21,032 bases of DNA. Origin: a virus. Shown in pieces: positions 15,888 to 18,327 of this stretch. Location of the stretch: positions 1 to 21,032 of IMG/VR virus record IMGVR_UViG_3300033816_000619, one strand, 5' to 3'. The stretch's first letter is position 1, and the number at the start of each line of letters is the position of its first letter. A model generated the notes under the pieces. That model saw nothing but the letters and a program-made list of their open reading frames with translations, was not told the DNA's origin and searched no databases. The translations under genes were made by a program, and so were the position numbers.

Positions 15888-16970
15888 TTACATCACGTTG
15901 GTGGACATAAAACCAGACTGCGCCCCCTGTCCCATTGTCCAATCTCCAGAACCTGCAAATGACTCATAACCTCCACCTCCTCCAAAACCAAGAGCGTTCA
16001 TCAACGCATAATTTTGGATTCCACCGCTGATTGCATTTGCTACTCCTCCAATGCCAGCAGCTTGAGCCGCTGCTGCTCCTTGAATTCCAGCAGCTTGAGC
16101 GCCTCCTTGAGCCATCAATAAGTTTCCAATTGAATTTGCAGATTGCATACCAGCTCCAGCCTGTCCAGCCGCAGACGCTTGACCCAGGTTAAGCATATTC
16201 TGCGCAGCAGCTTGCCCCACGTTGGCTAACCCGCCAAGGCGTCCATACTGTTGCTCGATAAGTTGGTTAAGAAGCTGTGGGCGGTACCGTGCGAGTGCGC
16301 TTTGCGTGCCCTCAGAACCGCGCCTGCCGGTAGCTGACGCTGCTGCAAGAATCGCTTCCTCGCCCTGTTTAGCGAGTTCTTGGTAAAGCGGCCCCTGCTC
16401 AATCTGCTGGATGGCTTGACGTTGCTGTTCAACATTGATTTTATCGTAATCTTTGTTTTCAACAATTGGCCTTACGAACTCTTGCTGTTTTGCAAATGCC
16501 TTATCTTGAATTGCTTGTACTACAGCATTCGTTTCAGAATCAAACCTTTCAAGCGATATGGGGTCTTTAATTGATTTTCTGGCAGCATCTCTTTTAGACT
16601 GGTAGTCATTAATTTCACTTAATGCAGATGACGCAATTTTTTTGTATCCAGCAGATTCAAAAGCTAAATTTAAATTTTGCTGCCTAATGCTTTCGCCTGA
16701 CAGCCCAGAAAGACGTTGTATATGCTGAAGTGCTACTGGGCCGACTGAAGCAAATGGTTTTGTTAACTCAGGGTTTCCAGCTTCAATGTACGGACGAAGA
16801 AGCTCCCGCATAGCATCGAACTGACGCCGCTGTTCTGCAATAGCAGCGTCAGAACTTTCAGCCTGTACGTTTGATGCACTTTTAGCTGCTTTTGAAGCTT
16901 TGCTTGATGAATATACCGATGCTCCTGCACCAACTACTGCCGCTCCAAGAATTGCCCATCCAAGACCCAT
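15888..16970 (-). CDS. gp7-like DNA ejection protein
   Basis: This 360-residue protein has a hydrophobic N-terminus (MGLGWAILGAAVVGAGASVYSSS), then charged helix, then a Gly/Ala/Gln-rich C-terminus (about 245-330) and a Gly-rich end. A membrane-active start plus low-complexity helix fits an ejected pilot protein, and it occupies the P22 gp7 position. The ATG at 16970 is chosen: AAGGA lies upstream, and it directly follows the stop of the citrate-synthase-like gene. A longer frame to 17018 overlaps that gene. The upstream half of the gene is AT-rich, like the two genes before it. Confidence 0.68.
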   Translation of the reverse strand: MGLGWAILGAAVVGAGASVYSSSKASKAAKSASNVQAESSDAAIAEQRRQFDAMRELLRPYIEAGNPELTKPFASVGPVALQHIQRLSGLSGESIRQQNLNLAFESAGYKKIASSALSEINDYQSKRDAARKSIKDPISLERFDSETNAVVQAIQDKAFAKQQEFVRPIVENKDYDKINVEQQRQAIQQIEQGPLYQELAKQGEEAILAAASATGRRGSEGTQSALARYRPQLLNQLIEQQYGRLGGLANVGQAAAQNMLNLGQASAAGQAGAGMQSANSIGNLLMAQGGAQAAGIQGAAAAQAAGIGGVANAISGGIQNYALMNALGFGGGGGYESFAGSGDWTMGQGAQSGFMSTNVM

Positions 16971-16971
16971 A

Positions 16972-17502
16972 TTAAAATTCCTTTCTGTTTTTAAGGTAAA
17001 TATCACTCCAAGCTTCAATTCTTGAAGTTATGAACAAAATTGCAATTACATCTCTTGGAAGACTTAAAGCATGAGCAACCGCTGCTGTGTAAATGCTTGG
17101 ATTTGGGTATATTTTCTTTCCTGAGTCGTGAAACTCTTTCGTCTTATTTGAGATGATTGAATATATGTCAGCCCAGTTTTCCTTTAACAATAAATCCACT
17201 TTTTCCCATGTTGCATCCGGTTCACCTTTTACAAAAGAGTTTCCCCATCCAGGCTGAATTCCATTGAATGTTTTTCCGTTAAGAAAATCGTATGCTTGCA
17301 AAAGAGGGCCATGCATACCGCCCAACGTCATAAGAGCAGAAGCAATTGATTGGAGGTAGCTGCCAGAAGCTCCTGCTGAATTTGCAACAGCAAGCGTGGA
17401 TGCATTATTTCTGTACGTGCTAATCGCGTGAGCAGAATGCAACTCATTCAAGAGTTGCCACTCTTTTTCTGAAAGAGGCTCATCTCTCCAAAATGAAATC
17501 AT
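16972..17502 (-). CDS. Truncated, degenerate citrate-synthase-fold protein
   Basis: The 176 residues align by eye with the C-terminal half of citrate synthases and citryl-CoA lyases. Residues 18-74 give LNELHSAHA, NNASTLAVANSAG and ALMTLGGMHGP, matching the family His-rich helix and the catalytic His region (His64). QPGWGNSF (83-90) replaces the usual PGFGH, so the second catalytic His is Asn88. IYPNPSIYTA (131-140) replaces PNVDFYSG, so the catalytic Asp is Ser136. FITSRIEAWSDIY (157-169) matches the terminal Arg motif. With two of three catalytic residues changed and about half the normal length, it is probably not an ordinary citrate synthase. It overlaps the sulfotransferase-like gene by ATGA and lies in AT-rich DNA. 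Its role may be structural, regulatory or inhibitory. Confidence 0.68.
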   Translation of the reverse strand: MISFWRDEPLSEKEWQLLNELHSAHAISTYRNNASTLAVANSAGASGSYLQSIASALMTLGGMHGPLLQAYDFLNGKTFNGIQPGWGNSFVKGEPDATWEKVDLLLKENWADIYSIISNKTKEFHDSGKKIYPNPSIYTAAVAHALSLPRDVIAILFITSRIEAWSDIYLKNRKEF

Positions 17503-17990
17503 AAGGTTCCAGCTCCCATCTGAATCAATGATGCCTTCTGCTGAATATTGAGCATCTGAAGTCTATGTATTCTTTCGCGTGGGAATTCAATTTCTGGCCG
17601 GCACCAGTCCCAAATATCTCTGATGCGCAACGAAATGTCTGAAAATTTCACCGTTAAGGACGGAGATATTTTTGAGATGCATTGCTCCAGATGGTCAAAA
17701 AGGAAAGCGCACTCTTTCAATGGAAGTTTTGACACCTTACAAAAAGAATCCAGACACTCATCTTTCGATCTATCGATAACAACCCACTTTGAATCTGGAT
17801 ACCTTTTTTTGATATCGTCGTAAAACATTGGCACTATAGAGCTTGAGTCGCCAATTTGTTTTCCAGATTCAAGTTCGCGCATGAAGTCAGCCATGGATTT
17901 ACCATCTCTTTCATGCGCACAGTCCAAGGCCACAGACAGCCATGCTGTCATGCTTCTTGGGAACCCGGTAATGAAAAACGGTTGATTCAC
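17499..17990 (-). CDS. Compact sulfotransferase-like P-loop protein
   Basis: This 163-residue protein starts with FFITGFPRSMTAWLS (5-19), the PAPS 5'-phosphosulfate loop pattern of sulfotransferases, in which Arg takes the place of the common Lys. KWVVIDRSKDECLDSF (68-83) resembles the 3'-phosphate-binding Arg/Ser segment. Normal enzymes have 250-300 residues, so this is a minimal form. It could sulfate a host or phage surface group, or be a phage virion-associated protein of the same fold. The start is GTG at 17990, with AGGAAGAG a little upstream. It follows the small structural gene by one base and couples by ATGA to the citrate-synthase-like gene. AT-rich composition suggests late acquisition. 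Confidence 0.68.
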   Translation of the reverse strand: MNQPFFITGFPRSMTAWLSVALDCAHERDGKSMADFMRELESGKQIGDSSSIVPMFYDDIKKRYPDSKWVVIDRSKDECLDSFCKVSKLPLKECAFLFDHLEQCISKISPSLTVKFSDISLRIRDIWDWCRPEIEFPRERIHRLQMLNIQQKASLIQMGAGTL

Positions 17991-17991
17991 T

Positions 17992-18327
17992 TTACGTCAC
18001 TTCTCTTCCTGAAGCGTTGATTGTGATAGAACTTGCCACACTTGCCAGAGTAGAAATACGCCCTCCAGCCTCAAGAACCTGTCCAACAAGTTCTGGACAA
18101 GTGTAAGTTTCTCTTGGAACAAGTGTCTTCGACGCAAGAATAAGATTTGCTGGGCCAACAGAAATCGACAATGGAACAAGGTTTACAGAAAAAGCCACAT
18201 TCACCGTAGAGTTGTTCGTCGCGGTAAACTTGTCGATGATGCACTTGCAGTTGTTTGCCGTGTACTGAGTCGTCTGCGAAGCCTCAGCCTGCTTGGGCGG
18301 AATGATGTTTTTGACGTTAACGGCCAT
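17992..18327 (-). CDS. Small beta-rich phage protein
   Basis: This 111-residue protein has alternating beta pattern with KCIIDKFTATNNST, NLVPLSISVGPANLI, TLVPRETYTCPELVG and a final INASGREVT. This architecture is common among small phage proteins coded beside tail genes, where it may be a virion or capsid-decoration component; no function is established that I know of. It starts 11 bases inside the end of the previous gene. Confidence 0.62.
   Translation of the reverse strand: MAVNVKNIIPPKQAEASQTTQYTANNCKCIIDKFTATNNSTVNVAFSVNLVPLSISVGPANLILASKTLVPRETYTCPELVGQVLEAGGRISTLASVASSITINASGREVT

Follow-up and report, generated by a model that had tools for sequence, protein, structure and literature searches.

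A phage-specific protein family with a predicted citrate synthase core, an altered active site and, in two phage types, a sulfotransferase-like partner

Citrate synthase (CS) functions as a dimer in which the active sites are shared between the subunits, and its C-terminal arm gives Arg421 to the active site of the partner subunit. The functional roles assigned to the residues of the pig enzyme considered here (His274, His320, Asp375, Arg329, Arg401, Arg421, His238, Asn242 and Ser244) are ones that we take to be established, and pig CS numbering is used below for equivalents identified by alignment. The PAPS sites of sulfotransferases include a 5' PKSGTTW-type P-loop and, for the 3'-phosphate, a site of the form R-x7-S. 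On the phage side, gltA has been reported on viral contigs from Lake Baikal viromes (PMC8066274), and OM43 phages encode sulfotransferase-like proteins, the role of which in phages is unclear (PMC10580990). A literature search recovered no description of phage CS-fold proteins of the short, altered-site kind described here.

The window, meaning the whole 21,032-base stretch of DNA that was analysed, is an uncultured virus record (IMG/VR IMGVR_UViG_3300033816_000619). The gene for the CS-like protein was found inside a tightly ordered minus-strand tail module of the P22 type (Table 1), in which genes for a head-closure/stabilisation protein, a C1q-like protein, a 111-aa protein, a 163-aa sulfotransferase-like protein (the partner), the CS-like protein and a gp7-like protein are followed by those for two large proteins. 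The plus strand of the same interval contains stops throughout, and the CS-like chain has its own start, with neighbouring genes occupying both flanks. The coupled overlaps described in the first-pass annotation are real: the start codon overlaps the stop codon of the partner gene as ATGA, and a single base separates the stop codon from the ATG that opens the ejection-protein gene downstream. A PADLOC search returned nothing.

Table 1. Features of the window, with the tRNA genes that contain the stop codon of the CS-like gene in T7-like relatives
Feature	Position	Strand	Description and evidence
Head-closure/stabilisation protein	20409-19009	-	P22-like tail module
C1q-like protein	Between the head-closure/stabilisation and 111-aa genes	-	P22-like tail module
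111-aa protein	17992..18327	-	Conserved in P22-like relatives; upstream border of the variable slot
Sulfotransferase-like P-loop protein (partner), 163 aa, PFFITGFPRSMTAW	17499..17990	-	Pfam Sulfotransfer_3; profile match to tyrosylprotein sulfotransferase
Putative CS/citryl-CoA-lyase-fold protein	16972..17502	-	176 aa, ATG to stop; ORF, homology, family and structure evidence
N-terminal extension, residues 1-15, MISFWRDEPLSEKEW	17458..17502	-	Alignments; similar Trp-containing extension only in copies with a sulfotransferase-like partner
Arg31	17410..17412	-	Alignments; invariant, specific to the phage family
Asn33-Ala34-Ser35	17398..17406	-	Alignment; equivalents of pig CS Asn242 and Ser244, kept
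His64 (pig CS His274)	17311..17313	-	Alignment; kept in 14/14 distinct copies
Asn88, replacing catalytic His320	17239..17241	-	Alignment; Asn or Ser in all relatives
Thr98, replacing Arg329 (oxaloacetate binding)	17209..17211	-	Alignment; Thr, Ala, Val or Ile in relatives
Ser136, replacing catalytic Asp375	17095..17097	-	Alignment; Ser or Ala in all relatives
Arg161 (Arg401 equivalent)	17020..17022	-	Alignment; invariant
P22 gp7-like DNA-ejection protein	15888..16970	-	Directly downstream of the CS-like gene; Pfam P22_gp7 1.2e-9; PHROG 598 1.4e-38
Two further large proteins	After the gp7-like gene	-	P22-like tail module
tRNA-Arg(TCT), L112	3579-3652		Contains the CS-like stop codon
tRNA-Arg(TCT), L113	4235-4308		Contains the CS-like stop codon
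tRNA-Arg(TCT), L114/L115/L117	8513-8586		Contains the CS-like stop codon

A resemblance to the C-terminal half of CS had been noted by eye, and this was borne out by profile and fold searches alike. The protein matched the Pfam Citrate_synt profile with 36.9 bits (E 2.8e-9; curated cut-off 27) and a profile built from cellular CS only with 44 bits, and a profile of 14 phage family sequences matched solved CS structures along most of its length, with E values as low as 1.3e-12. In the relative L119, residues 10-167 align to positions 161-340 of Citrate_synt, which is near the whole length of the protein. An AlphaFold model built from the 14 sequences (pLDDT 88.7, pTM 0.86), which replaced a poorer model from four close sequences, was compared with the PDB using Foldseek, and all 50 matches listed were CS, methylcitrate synthase, citryl-CoA lyase or ATP-citrate lyase, with no unrelated fold. 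The citryl-CoA lyase 6hxp was the top match in both rankings (Z 17.8; 172 of 176 residues; 2.5 A), and a Foldseek search of predicted viral structures gave no match. By sequence the nearest proteins were methylcitrate synthase and CS type II, and by shape citryl-CoA lyase. The NCBIfam CS-type models scored the protein at ~24 bits against cut-offs of 421 bits or more, the NCBIfam citryl-CoA lyase model matched a few family members only, and weakly, and identity to cellular CS across the phage proteins was about 16-26%. The significant profile match and the predicted fold place the protein in the CS superfamily, and, judged from these comparisons and the model, it is genuinely related to the C-terminal half of CS and forms a predicted compact core of the CS/citryl-CoA-lyase fold.

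The same gene was found at near identity in two other viral contigs only. The relatives recovered, 14 distinct sequences, fall into six diverged groups of uncultured phages, namely the P22-like group A (the window, L101, L102/L096, L103 and L104), the T7-like groups B (L109/L110), C (L111), D (L112, L113 and L115) and E (L114 and L117), and group F (L119-L126). Pairwise identity within the family falls to 28%, and in a tree with five cellular CS as the only other sequences, the phage sequences formed one clade with support 100/100. The family was opened using a degenerate DNA pattern for YPNP(S/T)xYT and then extended by family alignments. An alignment that mixed phage with cellular CS was unsuitable for scanning. 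The first search demanded PNP with Ser or Thr and later ones PGWG[NS]SFV or KGE[PL]D; as these patterns were partly drawn from altered motifs, copies that retain the ancestral residue, His, at position 88 may be under-sampled or missed. Group F was found through KGEPD and carries GFGN, not PGWG, and its Asn88 is therefore independent evidence, as is the Ser or Ala at position 136 in the groups found by the later family searches, where it is independent of the search pattern. A scan of 84,980 prokaryote genomes using exact short peptides, a weak negative, found no cellular member, and no record encoding the short family was found in INPHARED (50,697 phage genomes). Phage-named INPHARED records such as MT836793, OR848995 and OR850028 encode full-length cellular CS and are seemingly bacterial DNA; MT836793, considered as a phage homologue, was rejected as a bacterial contig with an ordinary CS.

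The first-pass annotation had proposed that the first catalytic His is kept and that the second His and the Asp are replaced, and all three assignments were correct by alignment, with His64 falling on the catalytic His of GPLHGG, Asn88 on the His of GFGH and Ser136 on the Asp of PNVDFY. The losses go beyond that first reading to the Arg329 and His238 equivalents and the Arg421 arm, before which the chain stops; Tyr30 is at the His238 position, an assignment that hinges on a two-residue gap. In the 14 distinct copies the positions of His320, Arg329 and Asp375 are never His, Arg or Asp, respectively, leaving only His274 of the triad His274, His320 and Asp375. From the oxaloacetate set of His238, Arg329, Arg401 and the Arg421 of the partner subunit, the window protein keeps only Arg401. 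Homologues with the same substitutions were found in the same slot of other phages, as the annotation had asked. Neither finding that it had named as refuting was obtained: the fold search gave CS and citryl-CoA lyase, and among the relatives recovered the second His and the Asp are both absent throughout. The catalytic replacements are thus, as aligned, the same across at least six diverged phage groups, with position 88 being Asn in groups A and F and Ser in groups B-E.

At 176 aa, the protein is far from a full-length CS chain of ~360-430 aa with an N-terminal domain, and although its core fold matches that of citryl-CoA lyase, the set that marks those enzymes (catalytic His, Arg and Asp in a short CS core) is incomplete, with the His and Asp replaced. 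Read from the alignments, the protein is without the residues needed for citrate chemistry and is not a CS. Under the established mechanism, the absence from the aligned protein of the Asp375 base, the His320 acid and most oxaloacetate-binding residues makes the known chemistry of citrate or citryl-CoA very unlikely. The family is therefore best described as belonging to the CS superfamily by its predicted fold and as being, by its aligned residues, neither CS nor citryl-CoA lyase.

What all 14 distinct copies keep is His64, Asn33, Ser35 and Arg161, together with a family signature, RxNxS...LGxxHxP...GxGxSFxKG. The invariant residues absent from the cellular CS compared include Arg31, Pro66, Ser89 and Phe90. 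Twenty of the 21 invariant residues are among the 51 positions, out of 176, that form loops aligned to the CS active site (Fisher p about 1e-11, to be taken as indicative, as the loops were picked from CS knowledge and some invariants are inherited from CS).

For group A pairs with unsaturated synonymous sites, dN/dS was 0.08-0.14 in the CS-like gene and 0.08-0.19 in the partner gene. The CS-like protein shares 70-73% identity between group A lineages and is exactly 176 aa in four of them. The L104 copy (L104:4598-5128) has an in-frame stop at residue 65, which is either a recent loss or an assembly error, and the remainder is still 58-60% identical. As no copy has the second His or the Asp, a new signature is shared and dN/dS is about 0.1, the family is evidently neither debris nor CS, and is on this reading a coherent phage family maintained under purifying selection. 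Together with the constant length, this agrees with the earlier view of a maintained gene.

The partner in the window matched Pfam Sulfotransfer_3 at 8.4e-5, which is under the cut-off, and its profile matched tyrosylprotein sulfotransferase at 8.7e-4. It is encoded directly upstream of the CS-like gene, and overlapping it, in all five group A lineages, where it always has exactly 163 aa and where its P-loop PRSMTAW and Arg74 are invariant and the 3' serine is Ser or Ala. A recognisable homologue (60 bits) also overlaps the CS-like gene in group F, in which the gene after the CS-like gene holds the ejection-protein position and gp7 homology was not detected. A Trp-bearing N-terminal extension of the CS-like protein is present in groups A and F and absent from groups B-E, and may form a contact with the partner. 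No sulfotransferase match was found in the records of groups B, C and E, some of which are fragments; the T7-like records without a match include four of 22-73 kb. Group D (L115 and L112) encodes a longer sulfotransferase elsewhere in the record. In L107 and L108, a sulfotransferase-like protein is encoded ahead of an ejection-type gene with no CS-like gene between them.

The slot between the 111-aa gene and gp7 was surveyed in 62 related records having both flanks, sorted by simple motif rules, with the Pfam matches behind the names mostly weak. It contains a helical 150-aa family with the motif DDVADGD in 16 records, a cupin in 14, a GNAT-like protein in 14, a 136-aa protein accompanied by a cupin or helical protein in six, a cupin-SET fusion in three and a cupin with an Asp/Asn-hydroxylase-like protein in two; it is empty in five, and the sulfotransferase-like and CS-like pair is found in two, both near-identical to the window. 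The slot upstream of gp7 thus seems to carry exchangeable small enzyme-fold proteins, often one per phage.

In the window (positions 16970-17990) and in L008-L084, this slot appears to be a hot spot at which small proteins with unrelated enzyme folds are encoded. The DDVADGD helical family (phrog_21390; 144-153 aa) is widespread (L020:5892-6350, L056:10979-11413, L061:3935-4396 and L084:11104-11553), and the copy tested had no Pfam match, with a motif reminiscent of metal-binding Asp-rich motifs. Some proteins of this slot look like fusions in which a cupin is joined with a domain resembling SET (protein methyltransferase) (L048:10429-11295, L059:8237-9100 and L072:10376-11233).

The genetic context is different in the T7-like groups B-E. 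There the CS-like gene forms part of a cluster of tRNA genes, next to genes for a RusA-like protein or a phage RNA polymerase, and no tail module adjoins it; its stop codon falls within tRNA-Arg(TCT) in groups D and E.

The explanation to which we give slightly better than even weight is that a CS/citryl-CoA-lyase core was repurposed in phages, with a pocket that was rebuilt and is still functional. The protein would act inside the infected cell as a ligand-binding pseudoenzyme or as the enzyme of a different reaction, partnered in two phage types. It would still bind a small ligand in a pocket rebuilt with Arg31, Ser89, Phe90, Lys92 and Asp96; since His64, Asn33, Ser35 and Arg161 remain, the likeliest candidates are CoA thioesters and carboxylates. 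As conservation concentrates in the pocket loops, ligand binding or altered chemistry is favoured over a mere docking surface. In the P22-like phages and one other type the CS-like protein would pair with the upstream sulfotransferase-like protein, and the T7-like phages would use it alone. We suggest tentatively that the rebuilt-site CS-fold protein and the sulfotransferase-like P-loop protein form a two-component phage system, working as one enzyme or effector encoded beside DNA-ejection genes, one component of which was adopted alone by the T7-like phages.

In the active version of this explanation the protein would be a new enzyme that converts a CoA thioester or carboxylate in a different reaction and that, in two lineages, joins the P-loop partner to form a two-subunit enzyme. 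The new invariant polar residues Arg31, Ser89 and Asp96 beside the kept Lys92 and His64, the overlap and conservation of the partner gene, and the extension shared only by partnered copies are consistent with this. However, the Asp375 position offers no evident general base, some groups are without the partner, and the 3'-phosphate-binding serine of the partner is not invariant, making an active enzyme a possibility short of a probability.

Alternatively, the sharing of active sites within the CS dimer could allow the protein to poison host CS, forming mixed dimers that are dead for want of the Arg421 arm and so throttling the TCA cycle during infection. The model appears to retain helices near the dimer interface without the arm, and the gene occurs in unrelated phages at a non-virion position. 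This is nevertheless unlikely, given that the invariant residues cluster in the pocket and not evidently on a docking face, that the protein is without the N-terminal part from which much of the CS dimer interface is built, and that identity to cellular CS is so low.

The conserved position directly upstream of gp7, among late tail genes, and the other single small enzyme-fold proteins held by the slot in related phages would also fit virion cargo, with slot proteins packaged or ejected together with the ejection proteins and the CS fold acting as a scaffold or early effector. This too is improbable in view of the T7-like copies, and because these sit among tRNA and replication genes and not in a virion module, a purely structural role is unlikely. 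A pseudoenzyme or altered enzyme is the most likely reading when set against both host CS poisoning and virion cargo.

An acquired metabolic gene still making citrate or methylcitrate is highly improbable, as His320, Arg329, Asp375 and the Arg421 arm are missing in every copy and the NCBIfam scores are far under their cut-offs, even though methylcitrate synthase and CS type II are nearest by sequence. Least probable of all is a decayed remnant of a bacterial CS gene, which the half-length, catalytically broken chain and the stop in L104 might suggest but which is already contradicted by the identical length in four lineages, the strong purifying selection and the same substitutions across six groups.

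The family would represent a branch, specific to phages, of an enzyme fold that is among the best studied. Surveys could record short CS-like genes of this kind as the metabolic gene gltA, and the sequence argues otherwise. The family also offers a clear experimental entry to the use that phages make of a CS-like pocket and to the reason for the accompanying sulfotransferase-like protein.

The partner belongs to a loose group of phage sulfotransferase-like proteins (PF13469 and PHROG 10855; Pseudomonas phages phiH1 and AAT-1, and the OM43 phages), but differs in having only 163 aa, in a P-loop that is not of the usual type and in being coupled to a CS-fold gene. Genes labelled gltA or prpC in viral data are, as here, CS-related genes on viral contigs, whereas the full-length CS found under phage names in INPHARED are ordinary long enzymes and none is of the short, altered type. 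The 2-methylcitrate synthases and CS type II (PrpC; 3tqg and 6s6f) are closest in sequence and share the equivalents of His274, Arg401, Asn242 and Ser244, but the phage protein is without their N-terminal half, has two of the three catalytic residues replaced in all members and, in the P22-like phage copies, has a shortened segment past the first His. With citryl-CoA lyase (Hydrogenobacter thermophilus 6hxp, and the citryl-CoA lyase module of ATP-citrate lyase) it has the compact core of the fold in common, but it is ~80 residues shorter, has 16% identity, and is without the His, Arg and Asp at 320, 329 and 375 and the C-terminal arm.
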